A stretch of 64,000 bases of DNA from an uncultured Thalassolituus sp. (lineage in GTDB: Bacteria; Pseudomonadota; Gammaproteobacteria; Pseudomonadales; Oceanobacteraceae): NCBI RefSeq assembly GCF_950066645.1, contig NZ_CATMFB010000005.1:62001-126000 (forward strand), in the 5' to 3' direction. Position numbers and translations under genes: made by a program. Positions within the stretch are counted from its first letter, which is position 1; the number at the start of each line of letters is the position of its first letter. The notes beneath the pieces were generated by a model. It was given only the letters and a program-made list of their open reading frames with translations. It did not search any database and was not told where the DNA came from. Shown here piece by piece: positions 1-12,381 of this stretch.

Positions 1-1993
1 CAATCAGATGCTTGGTGTACGTCTGTTCGTCTTGTGTGCCAACGTGCTCTTTCCACCACTGCGTCACTTCGGGTGTACCGGATTCGTCCACCGCCGTATT
101 ACCCTCGCGGGTATCCGGTGAACTCATCACGACCGCCGACTCAAATAAGCCTGCTTCATCCAGGTATTTCTTGTAGCGAATCGCCGATGCTTTGCTGTCA
201 CAGGCGAGCTGGGCTTTCAAACCATCGTCGACGTTCTTCACAAAATGGTTAGCGATATCCAGCGCAATCAGGTGAATGCGTTCCTCCGCGCCGTACACCT
301 GCCCTTTTTTGGAGAACTTACGTTTAAGGTCGGCCTTCTGCTGATCCGTCAGGCCTTCAGTAATGCGCTCAAACCAACGGTCAATCGCCCGGTCGTTTAC
401 ATCAATATCGGGGATGCGCTCTTCGTACAGCAAAGGCGTTACGGTTTTATCTTCCACCGCGCGCTGCATGGTGTAGGCATGCACGATCGGGCCGAATTTA
501 TTGGTGGTTTTATCGTCTTTTAACAGTGGCGTGCCGGTAAAGGCCACGAAAGATGCGTTGGGCAAGGCCAGCTTCATGCGAATATGGTTTTCGCCACCCT
601 GACTGCGATGGCCTTCGTCAATCAGTACGATCAGATCAGCACTGTCGTTATGACACTCGGGCAGCTTGGTGGCCGAGTTAAACTTCTGAATCAGCGAGAA
701 CATAATGCGCTCATTGCCTTTGCCGATCTGCTCTGCAAGGCGAGCGCCTGAGGTCGCCATCGCCGCGTCTTTGTCTTTCGACGTTGCCAGTTCACCACCG
801 CTGGCGAATGTTTTGCTGAGCTGAGTTTCAAGGTCGACCCGGTCAGTAACGACCAGAATCCGGCATTGTTTCAGACTGTCGTGAAGGATCAGCGCCTTAC
901 TCAGAAACACCATAGTGAACGACTTACCCGACCCCGTGGTATGCCAGATAACACCGCCCTCACGACCGCCAGCAGAATTGCGGGTATTGATCCGGTCAAT
1001 TAAGCACTTGATGCCAAACACTTGTTGATAACGGGCAACGATTTTACCGACCTTCTTATCAAACAAAGTGAAATAGCGGGTCATTTCGAGCAAGCGCTCA
1101 GGGCTGAGCAGACTGATCAGAATCTTATCCTGCTCAGATACCGCTAGCTCGCCACTGCTGATCAAGTGGTCATACCAGTCCAGATCGTCCGGATTACGAT
1201 GGCCAAACAGCCCTGCTTTTGTGGCGTCATCCAAACGACGATTTTTGATGGCGAACATCTCAGCATCCGAGATGTCTTCTTCACGCCAGGCCGCCCAGAA
1301 TTTCAGAGGCGTGTCACAGGTGCCATAGCGGCCATCAATACCGTTAATCGAGAACAGTAGCTGGCTATACGCAAATAACTGTGGGATTTCATCATGGCGC
1401 TGATTACGCAACGACTGCGAAATACCGGCTTCAATGGTCGGGCCTTTGCGGCTACTGCCATCCGGGCGCTTGGCCTCGATAACAACTAAAGGAATACCAT
1501 TCACAAAGCAAACGATGTCGGGGCGACGGGTATCCTGCGCCGACGACCCCGCACCACCCGAGCAGGTAACAATAAACTCTTCGGTAAAGGTAAAGCTGTT
1601 ATTGGCAAGATTCTGCCAGTCGATAATGGCAATGGTCGGGTTGGCCTTACGGCCATCGACAAATTCAGTGACTGAAATGCCATACAGCAGATGATTATAG
1701 AGTCGCTCGTTAGCACGCAGCAGGCCTTCGTTCAGAGCTGGGCTGCAGATCTCCGCAATCAGGTTATCAATGGCCTTCTCTGACAACGGATAGCTCTTGC
1801 CAGCAAAGGTAAAGGTACGCTTCTGAAGCTCGCTGCGTAACACTGAGCGCAAGACGACCTCATCGGTTTTGCCGCCACGGGCAGCAAGCGCCTGTTCAGG
1901 CGAGAGAAACGACCACCCAAGATTGGCCAACAACGTCAGCGCCGGTAGCTTGGCACTGTATTCTTCCTGAAATTTGGGAGCGTGGTGTTCCAT
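1..1993 (-). CDS. hsdR: Type I restriction endonuclease subunit R (3' part cut by window edge)
   Basis: Motor and nuclease subunit of a type I restriction-modification enzyme; it translocates DNA using ATP and cuts unmethylated (phage) DNA. I translated the minus strand from the ATG at 1993, which follows an AAGGATAACGA ribosome site; 664 residues are open to the window edge. Visible motifs are the PD-(D/E)xK nuclease (PDIV with D about 159, then EAK with E about 172 and K about 174), Walker A TGSGKS near residue 353, and a DEGH helicase box near 456. It is the last gene of the hsdM-hsdS-TIR-rhuM-hsdR string and lies 9 bp behind rhuM. Full-length HsdR is about 1000 residues, so roughly a third is missing here only because of the window edge. 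Confidence 0.95.
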   Translation of the reverse strand, partial: MEHHAPKFQEEYSAKLPALTLLANLGWSFLSPEQALAARGGKTDEVVLRSVLRSELQKRTFTFAGKSYPLSEKAIDNLIAEICSPALNEGLLRANERLYNHLLYGISVTEFVDGRKANPTIAIIDWQNLANNSFTFTEEFIVTCSGGAGSSAQDTRRPDIVCFVNGIPLVVIEAKRPDGSSRKGPTIEAGISQSLRNQRHDEIPQLFAYSQLLFSINGIDGRYGTCDTPLKFWAAWREEDISDAEMFAIKNRRLDDATKAGLFGHRNPDDLDWYDHLISSGELAVSEQDKILISLLSPERLLEMTRYFTLFDKKVGKIVARYQQVFGIKCLIDRINTRNSAGGREGGVIWHTTGSGKSFTMVFLSKALILHDSLKQCRILVVTDRVDLETQLSKTFASGGELATSKDKDAAMATSGARLAEQIGKGNERIMFSLIQKFNSATKLPECHNDSADLIVLIDEGHRSQGGENHIRMKLALPNASFVAFTGTPLLKDDKTTNKFGPIVHAYTMQRAVEDKTVTPLLYEERIPDIDVNDRAIDRWFERITEGLTDQQKADLKRKFSKKGQVYGAEERIHLIALDIANHFVKNVDDGLKAQLACDSKASAIRYKKYLDEAGLFESAVVMSSPDTREGNTAVDESGTPEVTQWWKEHVGTQDEQTYTKHLI

Positions 1994-2002
1994 TCGTTAT
2001 CC

Positions 2003-3034
2003 TTACTGCTGTGGCGGCTTCCAGTGTAACAGCTCTTCTATATCGTTCTCTCCGGCCTGCTCTTTCAGCCGCCGACGATGTTCTGCAAAGCGTTCATATT
2101 CGGCAGTTGCTTTGGCATCAGCGTCTTTTTTACTGATAGAGCCAGCCCCAACCAGGACATCTCTGTCATTAAACTGAAGAAACTGATCCAGCTTACTCTG
2201 CCAGTCCTGTAAGAACACCTGCTGACGTCGCTCAGCCTGATCTTCGGCAAAGTCTAACCACATGGTGACGATACGGTTAAGTTCTTTGATTTCTGGCTCG
2301 GTGAGGTAGTTCTTAGCCGTGACAATATCGCCCTTACGCACTTCTGTGCCTTTAAACGTGTTCAGCCCCATATTTGGCTGAGACGCATCAGCACGGCTAT
2401 GAATCAGTTCAGCGGCGGTATGACCAGAGCACGCATAGTGCAGCTTGTTCTGAATTGTTTTAAAGAACTGCGTGGTCTCTTTCAGAGACGGCTCGTAGTC
2501 TGCAGCGAGGGCAAATATCTCGCGTACGCGCAGGTACATCCGGCGTTCGCTGGCGCGAATATCGCGGATACGTTCGAGCAGCTCATCAAAGTAGTCTGGT
2601 GCTACGGATGCGCCGACCGGAGGGTTCTTCAGGCGTTCATCATCAATAACAAAGCCCTTAACCAGATACTCCTGAAGTGTCCGCGTCGCCCACTGACGGA
2701 ACTGGGTTCCGCGGGTGGAACGGACGCGGTAGCCGACGGCTAGAATAACCGACAGGCTATAATGCAACCGCTTGCGACTGACCTTACGCGCGCCCTCAAT
2801 CTGAACTTGTAAGTAATCCTTACAGGTTGAGTTTTGATCAAGTTCACCCTCTTCATACACCGCACGTATGTGTTGGGTAATCGCTTGCGGAGTCACTTGA
2901 TACAGGTCAGCCATAGCGGCCTGAGACAACCATAGGGTATCCGACTCAAACCGACATTCGACCCGCGCCCGGCCGTCGTCTGTCGTAAACACCACGAACT
3001 CGCCAGCTGGTGGTGTCGATGGTTGATTGGTCAT
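2003..3034 (-). CDS. rhuM: RhuM family protein
   Basis: A 343-residue member of the RhuM (virulence protein) family, named from a Salmonella pathogenicity island gene whose biochemical role is not settled. The N-terminal half has the family look: FTTDDGRARVECRFESDTLW, then a helix-turn-helix-like stretch LSQAAMADLYQVTPQAITQH, then the KDYLQVQIEGARKVSRK and RGTQFRQWATRTLQEYLVKGF segments. The ATG at 3034 follows AAGGAGAA with 7 bp spacing. RhuM genes often sit inside type I restriction operons, as here, between the TIR gene and hsdR. GC content returns to the level of hsdM and hsdR, unlike the AT-rich TIR gene. A regulatory or DNA-binding accessory role is inference. Confidence 0.85.
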   Translation of the reverse strand: MTNQPSTPPAGEFVVFTTDDGRARVECRFESDTLWLSQAAMADLYQVTPQAITQHIRAVYEEGELDQNSTCKDYLQVQIEGARKVSRKRLHYSLSVILAVGYRVRSTRGTQFRQWATRTLQEYLVKGFVIDDERLKNPPVGASVAPDYFDELLERIRDIRASERRMYLRVREIFALAADYEPSLKETTQFFKTIQNKLHYACSGHTAAELIHSRADASQPNMGLNTFKGTEVRKGDIVTAKNYLTEPEIKELNRIVTMWLDFAEDQAERRQQVFLQDWQSKLDQFLQFNDRDVLVGAGSISKKDADAKATAEYERFAEHRRRLKEQAGENDIEELLHWKPPQQ

Positions 3035-3067
3035 GTGCGGCTTCTCCTTACGTTGATAACCATTATA

Positions 3068-3232
3068 TTACCGACGCTGACCAGAAAGACTTAACACCGA
3101 GAAAGCGTCTTTAATTGGCTTCCAGACATCATCCGGAACTTGATGATGCTTAAAATATCGCTGAAGGTCAGTTCTCCAACACTCCTCTGTAGTTTCATCG
3201 ACATGAATAAATTTTTCAGCACTTACGTCACT
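3068..3232 (-). pseudogene. Start-less remnant reading frame between TIR gene and rhuM
   Basis: The 217 bp between the TIR gene and rhuM hold a minus-strand frame of 54 sense codons, bounded upstream by a TAA at 3233-3235 and ending in TAA at 3068-3070. It has no ATG, GTG or TTG start. The composition is protein-like, with amphipathic and charged stretches (AEKFIHVDETTEECWRTDLQ, then HHQVPDDVWKPIKDAF), and looks like the C-terminus of a lost gene. I do not recognise the family. It could be the scar of a previous resident of this operon slot that was replaced when the TIR gene arrived. A chance open frame cannot be excluded at this length. Confidence 0.4.
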
Positions 3233-3251
3233 TTAACGCTTTAGCCAGAAA

Positions 3252-5792
3252 TCATCCTATACGCTTTTGCTCTCTCTCGATCAGTTGCTGCCCTTTGACA
3301 GAGAGCCCCAGTAACTTTGAAAGTTGCTGTTTCTCTTTGTACCCCACTGGGAACATATATATGTGCTGCACCACCAACTCTTTGAGAATTCGAGTACATA
3401 CGTGATTGCCTTTGAGTCTCGCCATGCTGAGCTCAATACTTTTCATATCAATACGCTTCAAAAAGTGTAATTCGATCGATTGTTTAAGTAGCAACATCGC
3501 TGGTGTTGATTCCTTTTCTTCGATGGATCTATATATTTCCATCGCCTCCTTCGAACCTACCGAAGTTGCTATCTTTCTGACTACGTTATTGATTACACCG
3601 TATGTCAAATGGAGATATGCATTCTCAGCATGCCTTTCCACCTCATCATTAGATAACTCAGGGTTCTCTAAAAGGTGACTTGAAATAACTTTAACAATTT
3701 CGTTCTTTGCAATATCCGACATTGCTATAAAATATTTCAGAAATCGAAGACCGGCATTAATCCCATTTTCAGCTAGAACGTGCAGCGACTCTCTTTTCAA
3801 AGAGGCATGCCGGTTTTTTATAATCTGACCAGATATTTCCATACCTTTTAAAGTCTTGTTTATATCAGCTAGGATCTCCGTAGATTCCAACTCTTCATTA
3901 TTCGACCTAGCTCTCTCATTCTCATCAAGCTTATGGTTATAATCATCCCGCTCCCGTTGTATTTCACGTTGTTCAATAATTAGTTCTGGAATTTGCTTCA
4001 TGAAATCGCTCATGAACAACAACTGATCTTTTTCAAGAGTAGCGGCGGGATGTTCATCAAAAAGATCTGATAATACGGACTGAATTTCATTAATCACCCA
4101 ACCATCTCGAGTGTGATGGGCAACGAAAATTAATATATTTGCGTAATCTTCACGGTGCAGATTTTCCAAGAGAACAGTAACCTTGCTCCGAACCTCTTTA
4201 TTCTCCAAATACGATTCAGAGATCTTCTTCCCAACAAAAAAGTAATATATGTATGGATACTTAAAACCTGTCCTAAAATCCTTGACGTTCAATATTGACT
4301 GGCTAGACAACTTAGATAGCACCACTTCCTTATCAACATTGAGATACACACTACAGTATTCCTCAAAAAAATTATCCAGTTGGACAGTATTAGGATTCTC
4401 TTCATTTGAAAATATCCACCAAGCTAGCTCGGTCAATATATTCAGATACTTATCAAATTCACGCTCGTTAATTTTGGCACTCTCGAAAGCCTGATATATC
4501 AATTGCTGATAGCAATGACCATGAGATGAAAGCTCTAAATTTAGCTTAGATTGAGCCTCGTGCATCTGAAGAAGCATCAATATATAGATTGGTTTAGGGG
4601 GGACAATATTTTTCTTAACGACAGAGTTTATTGTTTCCTTCATCTCGTCACACTTTGTGTAGAGATCTTCATCGGAGATAGTTTGCTCAACTCCCAATGA
4701 TATCCACTTCTGAATGACTTCCTCGCGCTTTTTATTACCCAGACCAAGCAACTCAGCTCGCGCGAACTCGTCCAATCCTGGTACTTCATCTATTAGAAGA
4801 GAAAATGCCAACTGGTGCGTAAATACGCATCGCTCGGAAAAATCACAAATTTCACTTATAAATCGATCCCGATACTTACTATTCAATGCAATGTCGTCGA
4901 TATTGTCTACCATAACAACGATATCATCTGAATTCTTAAATTCCTCAAAATTCAAGCCATCATATTGTCGCGCCACTTCTTTTCGCAATATAGCTTCAGG
5001 ATTCGCATTTTTAATATCACTACCATTGATTATCAAAGGAATCATTGACTCCTTTAGAAACTCTCGATAGTAGTACTTCAATAAAGATGTCTTACCCTGC
5101 TGCTCTTCACCAAACACCAGAAAACGATTGAATTCCTTCGGTAATCTGCATGCACTTCGATAACTCCGTAGCTCCGAAGCCGAGTCGTCTTCAACTTCAA
5201 CATCCGGTACAGTATAAATGTCTGAAAGCTGAACTCTATCGACCATGCGATGAGTTAGGGCAATTTCAGTGTCTTCCAACCAATCTAGTATTGATGCGCT
5301 AGGGCATACACCTTCACTTTCAACTATAGCTGGGGCCTTTGGTTTGACCGGCTCAAACTCTTGTATGAGGTTTTTTATTCCTCTAATTACATCAACCCAA
5401 GCTTCATCTTGATCATCCCACAACGAGACAGGTCGAGCATCCTTTGGCAGCCCCTGTAGCGCCGACAAAGGAGAATCCGACCATTCAACAGAGCGAACCA
5501 CAATCGGTATCAGTTGAGCTTCCGAGGCTTTGTGCATTCTAAGCGCCGTTTCCACCTCTACATTCACACAATAGTCGGAACTCAAAAAAGAAGAACTTAT
5601 CAGGAAAAGAATAATCTCTGATCCTTTCAAGTTCTCATCGATTTGGTCGCTCCAATCTGTACCTGGTATGATCTTCCTATCATTCCATTCGCTAATAATT
5701 CCCGATCTTCGAAGTCCAGACAGGTGCTCAGTCAGACTATCTTTAAAACCTTCATCTTTGTGGGAGTAACTGATAAATACTTTTTTAGACAT
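3252..5792 (-). CDS. TIR-domain protein with STAND-like P-loop NTPase, embedded in type I R-M operon
   Basis: An 846-residue protein. Residues 1-145 form a TIR domain: KVFISYSHKD at the start and SSSFLSSDYC followed by the probable catalytic glutamate E79, four residues after C75 as in NAD-cleaving bacterial TIRs. Residues about 220-310 form a P-loop domain with Walker A GEEQQGKTS (228-236) and Walker B IVVMVDNIDD (291-300), resembling STAND/NACHT-type ATPases. The remaining ~530 residues are mostly helical, with a coiled stretch near 605-640 and no repeat I can name. The ATG follows AAAGGA and starts 10 bp after hsdS stops, so it is co-transcribed. It is clearly AT-richer than hsdM, rhuM and hsdR, which suggests separate acquisition. 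A TIR-NADase that kills or arrests the cell on phage sensing is inferred; the link to restriction-complex integrity is a hypothesis. Confidence 0.88.
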   Translation of the reverse strand: MSKKVFISYSHKDEGFKDSLTEHLSGLRRSGIISEWNDRKIIPGTDWSDQIDENLKGSEIILFLISSSFLSSDYCVNVEVETALRMHKASEAQLIPIVVRSVEWSDSPLSALQGLPKDARPVSLWDDQDEAWVDVIRGIKNLIQEFEPVKPKAPAIVESEGVCPSASILDWLEDTEIALTHRMVDRVQLSDIYTVPDVEVEDDSASELRSYRSACRLPKEFNRFLVFGEEQQGKTSLLKYYYREFLKESMIPLIINGSDIKNANPEAILRKEVARQYDGLNFEEFKNSDDIVVMVDNIDDIALNSKYRDRFISEICDFSERCVFTHQLAFSLLIDEVPGLDEFARAELLGLGNKKREEVIQKWISLGVEQTISDEDLYTKCDEMKETINSVVKKNIVPPKPIYILMLLQMHEAQSKLNLELSSHGHCYQQLIYQAFESAKINEREFDKYLNILTELAWWIFSNEENPNTVQLDNFFEEYCSVYLNVDKEVVLSKLSSQSILNVKDFRTGFKYPYIYYFFVGKKISESYLENKEVRSKVTVLLENLHREDYANILIFVAHHTRDGWVINEIQSVLSDLFDEHPAATLEKDQLLFMSDFMKQIPELIIEQREIQRERDDYNHKLDENERARSNNEELESTEILADINKTLKGMEISGQIIKNRHASLKRESLHVLAENGINAGLRFLKYFIAMSDIAKNEIVKVISSHLLENPELSNDEVERHAENAYLHLTYGVINNVVRKIATSVGSKEAMEIYRSIEEKESTPAMLLLKQSIELHFLKRIDMKSIELSMARLKGNHVCTRILKELVVQHIYMFPVGYKEKQQLSKLLGLSVKGQQLIEREQKRIG

Positions 5793-5802
5793 CTTTAGTC
5801 CT

Positions 5803-7032
5803 TTAATTAGCCTTAACTCTTCGCTTACCCGTCAACAACTGCTGCATTAGGGCTTTTTTCTCTTGCTTTAAAGCATCAAGTTTCTGTTGCAAAGCCGAGA
5901 TTTCTTGATCGGCACTGGAAAGTACGGTAGCGATTTTTTGTTGCTCTTCTTTCGAAGGAAGCGGCACTTTCAACGAGAAGAAGTCTGCAGGTTTAACATT
6001 CAACAAACCGTGAGCACGTCCACCTTCATGAGCTACTTGGCTGAGCCCTTTATTCATAAGGCCAGACTCAAAATAATGCTCCCAGTAGTCACTGTCAGCA
6101 TTGTTGACGTCCGACAGTTCAAAGCAAATGTATAAGGTGGTAACGACGCCATCGCGGTAACGGTTCAATCGTTTGATGGCACCCATCGGGTAACCATTTG
6201 AGTAGCTTTTGTTGTAAGCGAACTGCCCCTTCTTCAGCAAGAAGTATCCGTCGAGTGTTTCTGAAGCAACAGTTTTCTTGAAAAAGTCTTCTTGTCGAAT
6301 CAATCCGTGAACCCCTGAGATGGTTACAACATTTGTACTTTGACCATTGTTCTTCTCGGTAACCCGTTCAAAAACTGATGACAGCTTAATCTCGGCCCAC
6401 TCCCCCTCAAACCTAACCCCACTCTCATCCAGCAGGCGCTTCTTGCCTGTGAGCAGCTGTTGCATCAGGGATTTTTTCTGCTGCTGGCTGTTGGCAAGCA
6501 GTTGTTCGGTGGTGGTGATGGCCTTGTCCCAGGTGGAAAGGATTTGGGCGATTTTTTTTTGTTCGGAATATTCTGGATGAAAGATTCTTAACTTTTTTAC
6601 TTCAGCTATATTGATCCCTTTGACGGCCTGTCCAACTGTGTTCAGATCGATTTGCTGTTGAACGCTTGGCGATTGCAAAGCGTAAAAAACGTACAATGGG
6701 TCATCATCGCCACACACTCTAATCCTTGCTGTATCCTGAGTGATATTAGCGCCAGAGAGTGACGGTGGAACAATTGCAACTCGTCCCGTAGTCCCTCGTA
6801 TTGTTAAGAGTAAATCACCTTGATTTACCTCTGCTCGCTTGTATTGATTGTGGATTTTCAAGGATGTTCGAAGTAGATCATCCTCCAAAATCCTACCTCC
6901 GATAATGTTCTTAACTTTAATCACCGGAATTCCATCAGAAACATGTTCACCCGGCTTAAGAATGCCATAGCAAATTGGAGCACGAGGCTCGACAAACGAG
7001 TCTAAAGCTGTTGTTTTATGATTAGGCACCAT
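5803..7032 (-). CDS. hsdS: Type I restriction-modification specificity subunit S
   Basis: The 409-residue DNA-recognition subunit that selects the bipartite target for HsdM/HsdR. It has two target-recognition domains (about residues 10-180 and 215-370), each followed by a conserved helical spacer ending in a near-identical signature: KKSLMQQLLTGKKR (about 190-203) and KKALMQQLLTGKRR at the C-terminus. At DNA level these are GC-rich repeats around 5824-5860 and 6442-6480. The recognition-domain stretches are visibly more AT-rich, as expected if they are exchanged between strains. The start overlaps the hsdM stop by 11 bp (GTTATGGTGCCTAA), indicating translational coupling. Confidence 0.93.
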   Translation of the reverse strand: MVPNHKTTALDSFVEPRAPICYGILKPGEHVSDGIPVIKVKNIIGGRILEDDLLRTSLKIHNQYKRAEVNQGDLLLTIRGTTGRVAIVPPSLSGANITQDTARIRVCGDDDPLYVFYALQSPSVQQQIDLNTVGQAVKGINIAEVKKLRIFHPEYSEQKKIAQILSTWDKAITTTEQLLANSQQQKKSLMQQLLTGKKRLLDESGVRFEGEWAEIKLSSVFERVTEKNNGQSTNVVTISGVHGLIRQEDFFKKTVASETLDGYFLLKKGQFAYNKSYSNGYPMGAIKRLNRYRDGVVTTLYICFELSDVNNADSDYWEHYFESGLMNKGLSQVAHEGGRAHGLLNVKPADFFSLKVPLPSKEEQQKIATVLSSADQEISALQQKLDALKQEKKALMQQLLTGKRRVKAN

Positions 7033-8765: not shown

Positions 8766-9161
8766 TCAGGCAAGCCAACGATCGTATGCAAAATAGCAGC
8801 CCCAGAACACCAGTATGCCGAACATCCATATCAACACGGCGATGAGGCTGACATAAAGCACTTTTGCATAAGCAATAAGCCACGAAGGAACGTCCAGATA
8901 TGCTTCGTTCAGGCCACGAACTTTCCCTGATGACGGCGACGCCAGTAAACGGATAAACATTACATTGCGGATGAGGTTAGCGGGAAAAGCCGAAAATACA
9001 ACCACCTCTCCTGATCGGAAATATGGGGGGCAAAAGTATTTTTGCAGGAATGTTTTTGGCGTGGCCAACAAGAAACCGACAGAAATCAGTGTCCACATCC
9101 AGAAGGCCGCAAACGAGTACATCATAAGCAGAAATGCTTGCTCCAACATCACCTGCGACAT
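8766..9161 (-). CDS. Small membrane protein, putative immunity partner of the upstream LysM protein
   Basis: A 131-residue hydrophobic protein with about three membrane segments: residues 9-33 (AFLLMMYSFAAFWMWTLISV), a weaker one near 52-72, and a C-terminal pair around 92-126 (AKVLYVSLIAVLIWMFGILV). I do not recognise the family. Its start lies 13 bp inside the end of the LysM gene in another frame, a strong sign of coupled translation. A small multi-pass membrane protein encoded directly behind a putative membrane-acting toxin suggests an immunity function; this is inference from arrangement only. The following 190 bp up to hsdM contain nothing I can assign. Confidence 0.65.
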   Translation of the reverse strand: MSQVMLEQAFLLMMYSFAAFWMWTLISVGFLLATPKTFLQKYFCPPYFRSGEVVVFSAFPANLIRNVMFIRLLASPSSGKVRGLNEAYLDVPSWLIAYAKVLYVSLIAVLIWMFGILVFWGCYFAYDRWLA

Positions 9162-10174
9162 ACAGATCCAACTCCTGTACCCGATACAAAATCGACTTTT
9201 GCACCCGTGAGATCATATGCTGCTCTTGCGCTTTTACCAGCCAGGTAACCTGCAGCAACAGTGCCTGCCGCCAATACAATTGCTGTACCCCAGCCGACTG
9301 GATTTGATACAAGAAACAAACCTACTGCGTAACTTCCGGCGAACCCAATAGTGGTACTTGCAAGGGTTTCAATGAAGATCTCATTCTTTTCTTTGCTTGT
9401 ATCAGCATCGGCGATCTGCATACACGACGCCGCTACACCGACCCCAGTCAAAACTATGCCCCCTCGATTTGCCATCGTTGCTAACTTCTTCAACCGATCC
9501 GTATGCTCTACGATATTCGCCGTTGCTGGCACCGCACCACCTCTGGCTATACGAACCACTTCGTGAGGAGTTTTATCTCCATAAAGTAGTTTTTCAAATG
9601 GACCGATGTTTTTACGAAACTGATCAAGTGTCAGCTTACGCTGATAGTCATACTGGTTCTTTGTAAGTTTTCCTGATCGATAATCAGCATAAAGCTCACT
9701 CACTTTTTCGAGCAGGGCTATATTCCCCCCGCTAAGAAGGTTGCCCTGGCTACCCACAGCAACACTACCGGGAAGAGTCAGATAATTTGCATTACTCGCC
9801 AACCAACTCAAAACATAGAAATCGGGGTCACTTTCACGCGGTACTGATTGAAGTATTTGCGGCTTTGGCATAGAGAACAACGGGGAACGCTTGTCTTCAG
9901 GTACCTTACAAATTTCAGGGCCAGTTTCTACTTTCAATACCAATAGATCACCCGCAGTGATTCGATCTGGATTGGATATATGTGGATTCAATTCCATGAT
10001 ATCGGCGACACGTCTGTTGTACTCATTGGTTCCGAATCCGACGTTGAATAATTTCGCGAGAATCAGAGAGAGGGAATCGCCAGGCTTGACCCGGTATTCA
10101 AAATATTCGATTGGTTCTTGAGCCAGATACACGTACAAATCCTTTTGTTCGATATTATGACCAGGACTATACAT
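9149..10174 (-). CDS. LysM-domain protein with glycine-rich hydrophobic C-terminus (putative secreted toxin)
   Basis: 341 residues. Residues about 24-85 form a LysM-like peptidoglycan-binding domain (YFEYRVKPGDSLSLILAKLF ... RRVADIMELNPHISNPDRITAGDLLVL). No N-terminal signal peptide is visible. The middle is uncharacterised. From about residue 245 it becomes glycine/alanine rich and membrane-prone (GGIVLTGVGVAASCM, SNPVGWGTAIVLAAGTVAAG) and ends in a conserved-looking DFVSGTGVGSVC tail. LysM plus a glycine-zipper-like hydrophobic tail, without a Sec signal and next to a small membrane gene, resembles contact-dependent (type VI-type) pore-forming effectors. No secretion genes or VgrG/PAAR genes are in the window, so it would be an orphan cargo. 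Function is inference. Confidence 0.75.
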   Translation of the reverse strand: MYSPGHNIEQKDLYVYLAQEPIEYFEYRVKPGDSLSLILAKLFNVGFGTNEYNRRVADIMELNPHISNPDRITAGDLLVLKVETGPEICKVPEDKRSPLFSMPKPQILQSVPRESDPDFYVLSWLASNANYLTLPGSVAVGSQGNLLSGGNIALLEKVSELYADYRSGKLTKNQYDYQRKLTLDQFRKNIGPFEKLLYGDKTPHEVVRIARGGAVPATANIVEHTDRLKKLATMANRGGIVLTGVGVAASCMQIADADTSKEKNEIFIETLASTTIGFAGSYAVGLFLVSNPVGWGTAIVLAAGTVAAGYLAGKSARAAYDLTGAKVDFVSGTGVGSVCRR

Positions 10175-10256: not shown

Positions 10257-11213
10257 TCATATATTCCGGTTCAGGGCATCCTGCAGTCTTTTCGTATACT
10301 CAGCTTTCAGTTTGTCTGGGGCTGTCACTATGACATTGGGCGCATACGACAGCAGGTCGCGAAGCAGTTCGCGGTCGTCATTGTAAGGTAATTCGAGGTG
10401 ATAGTTATCGTCCTGCCACTGCCCTTTGGCTTTGGGGTGCCATTGCTGCTGGGCGACAAGGTGGGCTGCCCCGGGCAGGAAGACCAGTTCAGCGAGATGT
10501 TTCTCGTCCCCTGAAAAGATGCCATAACTGTTGTGTAGGTGCGCTTCATTCAGATCGCGACTGAGTTCGTCGGCGGCGGCGTTGGTTTGGTAAGCGCTCC
10601 GGATACGGCTGAGCATAAAGGTGCGCAGTTCGTTGCGTTTGTGGCACCACGCGTCGAGGTACCAGTTGTCACGGTAGTAAACCAGTGTCTGGGGGCTGAT
10701 ATCTCGTTCGCTGATGCTCTGGTCGCTGGCAACATAGTGGATATGTAGCTGTTTGCGGTTAAACAGGGCGTCGCTCACCTGCTCGTAGATATGGGTGCTG
10801 GTCGGTCGACGTGTGCTGCTGAGTATGCGTATCCGGCGGCTGAGTTCGGTAGCATTAATCCCCCGATGTCTGAGCATCTGTTCTATCTGCTGGCGGATCG
10901 CGGTGACGTCGCTGTCTTCCTGGCCGGGCAGAATGTCGTTCAGCAGATCCAGTATGGTGACCATGCCGCGCATTTCGGCGGAGGTCATGGAGATTCCGTC
11001 CGACGCCTCTGCGCCCTCGCTCTGATAGCTGTAGCGACGTGTAGACGCATCGTAGCTGATCTGAACCCCTTGAGTACCGGTGAGTTCTGACAGTGCCGAA
11101 CGCAGTTGGTCAGGGCTCGCGGCCAGACTCGTTGCCAGGTCCATTATGCTCAGGCCGTCGGGCTGTTTTTTGAGCATCCTGTGCAATTGTTGAACAAGAT
11201 CGGGGGCAACCAT
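10257..11213 (-). CDS. WYL-domain transcriptional regulator
   Basis: A helix-turn-helix plus WYL-domain regulator, about 318 residues. I prefer the ATG at 11213 because it follows GGAGAACGGA; an upstream ATG at 11279 is in frame but has no ribosome site. The N-terminal winged helix runs from MVAPDLVQQLHRMLKK through LATSLAASPDQLRSALSELT. The WYL core holds KQLHIHYVASDQ, SPQTLVYYRDNWYLDAWCHK and the RTFMLSRI segment, followed by the C-terminal extension typical of YafY/PafBC-like proteins. WYL proteins bind nucleotide or nucleic-acid ligands and frequently control defence loci. Its place at the edge of the restriction/toxin block fits this, but no operator was identified. Confidence 0.88.
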   Translation of the reverse strand: MVAPDLVQQLHRMLKKQPDGLSIMDLATSLAASPDQLRSALSELTGTQGVQISYDASTRRYSYQSEGAEASDGISMTSAEMRGMVTILDLLNDILPGQEDSDVTAIRQQIEQMLRHRGINATELSRRIRILSSTRRPTSTHIYEQVSDALFNRKQLHIHYVASDQSISERDISPQTLVYYRDNWYLDAWCHKRNELRTFMLSRIRSAYQTNAAADELSRDLNEAHLHNSYGIFSGDEKHLAELVFLPGAAHLVAQQQWHPKAKGQWQDDNYHLELPYNDDRELLRDLLSYAPNVIVTAPDKLKAEYTKRLQDALNRNI

Positions 11214-11325
11214 TCCGTTCTCCGGGATTTTCGTGAGTTTTTGGGTGTCTGTATGTTGCAAAGTTCGGCACCGGGCCATACTTTAACCAACCATTAAGAC
11301 CATTGAACAGAAGGAAATCTCAGGA

Positions 11326-11739: not shown

Positions 11740-12381
11740 TCACCCCACAATGTCTTTTACAAACTCTGCAACGGCGACCGCTGTGCTTTCCATGTGCTGT
11801 TGATGAGTAAACCCGGATGCCTTGCGCGGTTTCAGGTCGTGATTTCCGTCTTCGAGCCAATGCAGCTGTAATGCCCCATCAAGTCCGTAGCCTTCGATCT
11901 CTTCCCGCGTACCCATAGTGTCGCGAGTACCCTGTGCAATCAGGGTCGGAACATTGAGGGCTTTGAGATGTTCGGTTCTCAGCCTGTCGGGTTTGCCGGG
12001 CGGGTGAAACGGGTAGCCAAGACAGGCACAGCCCCTGATCAGTGGACTGAACAACGATCGCTGCTCTTCGTCATTTGCCAGCAACGAGGCCATCCGTCCT
12101 CCCATGCTCTTTCCGCCGATCACACAGGGGCGATCAAGCTCCCGGATCAGGTCTGCGTAATACTGAAGTAACACCGGAGCCCGGTCCGGGGGGCGTTTCT
12201 TGCCATCCTGTTCGCGTTTGAGCATGTATGGGAAGTTAAATCTGACCACATACAGCCCCTGTGCGGAGAGCATACCAGCCATCTCTGTCATGAAATCACT
12301 GCGACAGTCTGCGCCAGCGCCGTGGGCCAGTACGAAGACCGGGTTACCGGAATTTCCGTCAGTCAGAACAGTGAGTGTCAT
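11740..12381 (-). CDS. Alpha/beta hydrolase of the KANL3/Tex30 type
   Basis: About 213 residues from the ATG at 12381, chosen because it follows AAGGATAAGCCT; an in-frame upstream ATG at 12435 would add 18 residues but overlaps the putative ANR promoter side. Features are an early VFVLAHGAGADCRSDFM oxyanion region, the nucleophile elbow GKSMGGRM (serine nucleophile) and a late LHWLEDGNHDLKPRK with the catalytic histidine. The aspartate is probably in LIAQGTRDTMG. Substrate is unknown; this family is annotated as dienelactone-hydrolase-like or KAT8-NSL-complex-like in bacteria. Confidence 0.85.
   Translation of the reverse strand: MTLTVLTDGNSGNPVFVLAHGAGADCRSDFMTEMAGMLSAQGLYVVRFNFPYMLKREQDGKKRPPDRAPVLLQYYADLIRELDRPCVIGGKSMGGRMASLLANDEEQRSLFSPLIRGCACLGYPFHPPGKPDRLRTEHLKALNVPTLIAQGTRDTMGTREEIEGYGLDGALQLHWLEDGNHDLKPRKASGFTHQQHMESTAVAVAEFVKDIVG

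Follow-up and report, generated by a model that had tools for sequence, protein, structure and literature searches.

The PrrC protein guards the EcoprrI restriction system and fires when phage anti-restriction disturbs the complex. DarTG2 of EPEC is encoded between hsdS and hsdR, as stated in the available part of PMC12255303, and thus other modules also use this place within type I operons. DS-8 (DefensePredictor; NCBIfam NF053861) is a phage-tested, single-protein metallophosphatase-NACHT system in which, according to the available part of its description, changes to metallophosphatase or NACHT residues abolished defense (PMC13092281). The PDC names, which include the PADLOC candidate PDC-S60, come from the guilt-by-embedding study of Payne et al. 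2024, as cited in the accessible text of PMC13092281 and PMC12988326. Finally, a TIR-NLR of a P4-like satellite protects against phages and is described, in the part of the source available, as containing C-terminal TPRs (Rousset et al. 2022, PMC9122126).

We analyzed a TIR-STAND gene that is located among the genes of a type I restriction-modification operon in an uncultured Thalassolituus sp. (the window hereafter denotes the whole stretch of 64,000 nucleotides that was examined). The encoded protein shares with DS-8 the NACHT/STAND NTPase and the helical C-terminal module but contains an N-terminal TIR domain where DS-8 has the metallophosphatase, and its score is below the curated cut-off of the DS-8 model. 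Like the TIR-NLR of Rousset et al., to which it can be likened by the published description, it combines a TIR domain and a central STAND NTPase in one protein, whereas the C-terminal TPRs mentioned in that description were not found here (no TPR family in a Pfam scan, E up to 1). As with PrrC and DarTG2 in type I operons, an apparent abortive module is encoded among type I genes, but Pfam, PADLOC and NCBIfam gave no match to an anticodon nuclease domain and no DarT domain was matched. The TIR domain is related to that of Thoeris ThsB, but is fused here to a STAND NTPase, and no ThsA-like partner was found among seven operon and upstream genes and hsdR. The catalytic glutamate of NAD+-cleaving TIR effectors is present (E79), with cleavage predicted in this case, and, as in STAND/NLR-like proteins, a P-loop core containing both Walker motifs (A and B) is found.

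Organization of the operon

The minus-strand operon starts with hsdM (8572-7022), the type I methyltransferase gene (N6_Mtase, E 8.4e-107; TIGR00497 above cut-off), and hsdS (7032-5803), the gene for the type I specificity subunit (Pfam Methylase_S, E 2e-21), followed by the TIR-STAND gene (5792-3252), an intact open reading frame of 846 aa with an ATG start and no internal stops. A second embedded gene, rhuM (3034-2003; Pfam Virulence_RhuM, E 1.7e-113; PADLOC PDC-S05), precedes hsdR, which begins at 1993; its 5' part (2-1993, minus strand; TIGR00348 above cut-off) lies in the window and the gene continues beyond it, the full-length product in locus L039 being 1105 aa.

A previous sequence-only reading of this DNA had placed the gene 10 bp behind hsdS, upstream of hsdR and in DNA that is AT-richer than its neighbors. 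The distance between the end of hsdS (5803) and the start of the TIR-STAND gene (5792) is indeed 10 bp, with a ribosome site (AAAGGA) ahead of the gene that overlaps the hsdS stop, and the GC content of the gene (0.398) is lower than that of hsdS (0.446) and hsdM (0.537); the order relative to hsdR is right as well, but rhuM intervenes. The GC content of 248 segments of the same length, taken from position 12000 on, ranges from 0.496 to 0.582. Because the gene has no match in any of the 8 congeneric genomes searched, it is probably foreign.

The gap between the TIR-STAND gene and rhuM (217 nt) contains a 50-residue open tail (3071-3220, minus strand), for which, apart from the tail itself, only chance-level matches were detected in the fetched loci (E >= 0.13), with none in 194 genomes and none on plasmids; this tail is perhaps the end or a relic of a former cargo gene. 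The 1700-6000 interval contains a single family of short direct repeats and a single short inverted pair, none of them at the cargo borders. A promoter scan gave no excess over shuffled sequence (10 vs 10.5) and a terminator scan gave 14 vs 7.2 (sd 3.3); no conclusion rests on either. Upstream of the operon, a WYL-domain regulator is encoded at 10257-11279 (minus strand; PADLOC WYL model, E 2.3e-32), and genes for a LysM-domain protein and a small protein without assignment lie between this regulator and hsdM (8766-10174, minus strand).

Domains, profile families and predicted fold of the TIR-STAND protein

The protein consists of a TIR domain (residues ~1-145; Pfam TIR_2 at 5-128, E 7.1e-17), an NTPase region (~189-364) and a helical C-terminus (365-846). 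The TIR domain with a probable NADase glutamate and the Walker A/B NTPase that had been noted before were both confirmed. At the position of the putative catalytic residue E79, all 42 of the TIR domains that were aligned have a glutamate; this alignment includes separate TIR genes and excludes L037 and L038, two divergent proteins from plasmids that carry a TIR annotation. The Walker A motif terminates in G233-K234-T235 and D296 belongs to Walker B, with G233, K234 and D296 invariant in all 69 rows of the STAND alignment. The Pfam scan also matched nSTAND_NTPase4 at residues 471-520, barely above the cut-off (28.8 bits vs 27), and no PHROGs family was assigned at E 1e-5.

The C-terminus, previously taken to be helical and unassigned, is long and helical but can be assigned: residues 165-840 match positions 193-898 of the 906 of PDC-S60 (PADLOC, PDLC05050; E 2.2e-85), and residues 165-829 match positions 311-993 of the 994 of DS8_antiphage (NCBIfam NF053861; E 2e-168), with a score of 562.1 bits that is under the curated cut-off of 790. 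Of four metallophosphatase relatives scanned, three pass this cut-off (981-1101) and the one on the viral contig L173 (742.5) is below it. Thus, the profile matches identify the C-terminus as being, by prediction, of the DS-8 kind, which connects it to a known system that, in the part of the source available, is described as a single-protein one (PMC13092281). The resemblance to PDC-S60 extends to embedding in a defense operon, but the match leaves profile positions 1-192 uncovered. Our literature search recovered no paper under the name PDC-S60 and no experimental work on a TIR member of the family confirmed by sequence.

The PADLOC ThsB model matches residues 4-153 (E 1.6e-45), and the nearest solved sequence to the TIR domain is Cat1, a CRISPR-associated TIR (E 2.6e-6). 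Comparison of a profile of the C-terminal module with solved structures produced P-loop and chance matches only, with a best E of 0.02. The AlphaFold2 model, built on 31 aligned sequences, has a mean pLDDT of 80.2 and a pTM of 0.48, and a Foldseek search of the PDB yielded 15 matches at E <= 0.001, with RPP1 (plant TIR-NLR, 1e-6), NLRC4, NLRP3 and Avs4 at the top. The TM-scores by query length of these 15 best matches are 0.13-0.19, which argues that the NLR likeness concerns parts of the predicted fold and not their arrangement.

Effector exchange among the relatives

A GTDB genome scan with a seven-row alignment identified 71 loci that, together with four plasmid loci, gave 75 parsed relatives, a sample rather than a census because the scan was built on two peptide patterns. 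According to profiles made in this work, the N-terminal region is a TIR domain in 33 of the 75 and a metallophosphoesterase in 27. The remaining 15 include L081 and L083, with a nucleotidyltransferase (Pfam NTase-conflict; L081 tested), seven loci in which a TIR open reading frame lies beside or overlaps the STAND gene (L057, L060, L075, L076, L079, L097 and L115), the aforementioned L037 and L038, and fragments. One and the same NTPase-C-terminal module, then, carries a TIR domain, a metallophosphoesterase or a conflict-type nucleotidyltransferase.

In the tree of 69 rows (seven fragmentary loci dropped and the window added; quick method, with SH-aLRT support only), the window groups with L046 from Marinospirillum and L047 from Gilvimarinus at 100, with the inner L046/L047 pair at 97. 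With the TIR forms pooled, the effector state requires at least four changes on this tree. For other STAND-like proteins, exchange of the effector ahead of the module has already been published (PMC8195603 and PMC9122126, in the parts available), so that the principle has precedents.

Some relatives differ in gene arrangement: TIR and STAND are encoded by two adjacent genes, or an extra TIR gene precedes the TIR-STAND gene (L060, L075; L062-L064). In L035, L094 and L107, a common gene of ~195-205 aa with hydrophobic stretches is located immediately upstream of the TIR-STAND gene, and a gene similar in place and size is present in L171, L172 and two E. coli loci; the two of these hydrophobic proteins that were tested matched no Pfam family above the cut-off.

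Genomic contexts of the relatives

To assess linkage with type I systems, iterated profiles derived from the HsdM, HsdS and HsdR of the window were run against the open reading frames found at the 75 loci, which extend to at most 9 kb on each side. HsdM and HsdR occur together in four of the 75 loci (L047, L051, L078 and L095), that is, in 4 of the 53 relatives whose flanks both span at least 4 kb. L047 alone has the gene between hsdS and hsdR; in the other three it comes after hsdR. A methyltransferase match without HsdR was obtained for L080, where the upstream side is incomplete, and, weakly, for L069. As controls, the HsdM and HsdR profiles detected type I genes in L173, a contig that was not used in profile building and in which a metallophosphatase relative comes after the type I series, as well as HsdM in 20 of 20 and HsdR in 19 of 20 related operons; the HsdS profile missed the L173 specificity gene, and the linkage profiles may miss very distant type I families. 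Within the phylum, the DS-8 model matched 27 of 398 genomes, the source genome included, but only 7 of these matches reach the NTPase and C-terminus; prevalence by this model was left out of the linkage count because the other 20 cover the metallophosphatase part alone.

We also scanned 107 of the 139 listed immediate neighbors, leaving out 32 (short or doubtful reading frames, near-copies, three TIR reading frames and two long ones, in L090 and L111). Among the Pfam matches listed (25 of 127 families), HSDR_N was found in 3 of the 107 neighbors, TIR_2 in 5 and phage integrase in 4; among the models listed (25 of 189), type I endonuclease models were found in 3 and specificity models in 1.

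The five linked rows, the window included, require five changes on the tree, and L046, the tree partner of L047, contains no hsd genes within 8.5-9 kb. The window and L047 are 92% identical in HsdM, 82% in HsdR, 76% in the TIR-STAND protein and 34% in HsdS; their shared placement could represent one old association that was retained in both and lost in L046. Three further relatives and the viral contig L173 adjoin a type I operon, and there may be a mild tendency toward such operons.

The relatives on Vibrio, Lactococcus and Streptococcus plasmids are outside type I operons in the stretches shown, the plasmid gene tables being incomplete; type II restriction genes lie ~1 kb away from the Lactococcus gene, as do methylase genes from a metallophosphatase relative on a Paenisporosarcina plasmid. 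In E. coli, with the L172 prophage gene and its upstream neighbor as the query, relatives with 60-80% DNA identity were detected in 5 of 5426 genomes; one of the two loci examined is an island beside ssrA, two genes from a KwaB-like gene, and the other is an integrase island. Six IMG/VR loci contain relatives, and a tblastn search of GenBank phages with the window protein gave no match. In L168 and L172, the gene sits between a gpA-like replication gene and the portal gene, the portal side of this arrangement being seen in L171, whereas in L170 it is among tail genes and split over several frames. Some relatives thus occupy the gpA-gpQ slot of P2-like prophages, an interval that is a defense hotspot of P2-like phages according to the available part of Rousset et al. 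(PMC9122126). Nothing was found with the Hsd profiles in L168-L172, L174 and L175.

The hsdS-hsdR interval in related operons

Within the order, HsdM relatives at E <= 1e-100 are present in 49 of 390 genomes, the source genome included, and we compared the best 20 places outside the source genome, which come from 19 genomes and encode HsdM proteins 73-98% identical to that of the window. None of the 20 operons contains a match to the TIR-STAND protein at E 1e-3; in 19, different genes occupy the slot or lie close to it, and in L164 the slot is empty. The contig of L154 ends before hsdR and L152 appears broken. A family scan identified the cargo as a SMODS cyclase with SLATT_6 (L147), a SIR2-like protein (L148), AriA-like PDC-M07A (L149), SIR2 with HerA (L150), a dGTPase (L153), McrBC, patatin and a cyclase (L155), SMODS (L157), Schlafen AlbA_2 (L159), an AAA ATPase (L165) and AbiD (L166); the cargo of the remaining operons was classed by eye. 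Many of the slot genes are predicted defense genes (CBASS, SIR2-HerA, McrBC, AbiD). Judged by eye, L151 holds apparently non-defense, epimerase- and glycosyltransferase-like genes between hsdS and hsdR (L151:6873-12372), so not all cargo is defense.

The operons of L147 and L148, from the same genus, encode HsdM 97-98%, RhuM 97% and HsdR 94% identical to those of the window, but HsdS only 35-40% identical. DNA homology detected by blastn covers hsdM and the conserved parts of hsdS, ends at ~5822 and is back at 3084, leaving a cargo segment (3085-5821) without homology in either operon. These breakpoints, together with the low HsdS identity, imply exchange of the cargo and the hsdS recognition domains relative to the congeners; by comparison of the aligned genes, these are the parts that differ in an otherwise common operon. 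A ~100-bp copy of the hsdR 5' end is located directly before rhuM in L147 (6267-6370) and L148 (5997-6092) and is absent from the TIR-STAND/rhuM gap of the window; in these two operons, it looks as if rhuM had arrived along with a second copy of the beginning of hsdR.

Proposed function and alternative explanations

We consider it quite probable that the product belongs to the PDC-S60/DS-8 family and acts autonomously against phages as a TIR-STAND (NLR-like) protein, likely by cleaving NAD+, and that its gene is a guest in an exchangeable slot. The gene would probably be read from the type I operon. A sign of infection would be sensed by the helical C-terminus, upon which the P-loop NTPase would oligomerize and the clustered TIR domains would cleave NAD+ via E79, such that the infected cell would halt or die ahead of phage release. 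The gene would be found in the hsdS-hsdR interval because this interval is an exchangeable cargo slot, and not through any need for, or monitoring of, HsdMSR.

The sequence-only reading, which cast the protein as an abortive-infection fuse watching the HsdMSR complex, is partly supported: homology, which indicates a TIR effector coupled to a STAND/NLR-like switch, makes the fuse plausible, and this half stands as something we infer, but the guard half is not supported. That reading, the first to be weighed, has the protein bind to HsdMSR or keep watch on it and fire once phage anti-restriction disturbs the complex, as the position inside the operon in the window and L047 and the DarTG2 precedent of EPEC (PMC12255303, available part) would suggest. 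Yet most of the sampled relatives have no hsd genes nearby, with 4/53 near HsdM and HsdR and one embedded, so that location in type I operons is not the rule for this family, as it would be for a PrrC-type guard; L046, paired with L047 on the tree, lacks hsd genes within 8.5-9 kb; and the related operons hold unrelated genes at the slot, several of them known defense genes, even in congeners with nearly identical HsdM (97-98%). The two outcomes that the sequence-only reading had named as refuting it, homologs mostly apart from hsd genes and a C-terminus that matches a known system, were thus both obtained. On linkage and cargo exchange, we reject the guard as highly improbable, although direct contact with the Hsd proteins could rescue it.

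Cooperation without contact, in which a co-expressed second layer catches phages that escape restriction, is compatible with the autonomous TIR-STAND protein and can be entertained tentatively: the tight spacing and the ribosome site behind hsdS fit it, as does the use of the slot by several kinds of defense genes, but a mere haven for cargo gives the identical pattern and the L151 cargo is not defense-like. We regard it as unlikely that, beyond this, the slot is a recombination-fed dock that places abortive modules, the TIR-NLR among them, under restriction-linked control as a fallback without a guard interface. The TIR domain could also make a signal instead of depleting NAD+, in a Thoeris-like scheme where a signaling nucleotide acts on a partner effector. 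The strong match to the ThsB model and the separate TIR genes or small hydrophobic-protein genes upstream of some relatives point in this direction, whereas Pfam detected no SIR2 or SLOG domain in the seven neighboring genes, nor was one found in hsdR, and the effector is fused to the STAND switch, which makes such a scheme quite unlikely.

The family described here joins the PADLOC candidate PDC-S60, the phage-tested DS-8 and the TIR-NLR architecture into one in which the NTPase and C-terminal module are constant and the effector is a TIR domain, a metallophosphoesterase or a nucleotidyltransferase, so that effector swaps can be tested on one common scaffold. The comparison of operons maps the breakpoints at which cargo was exchanged in a type I system, and it shows position inside an operon to be weak evidence for a guard. 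If the hsdS-hsdR interval is indeed a dock, the type I operon would try abortive modules in turn, and these modules would act when restriction is blocked or evaded.
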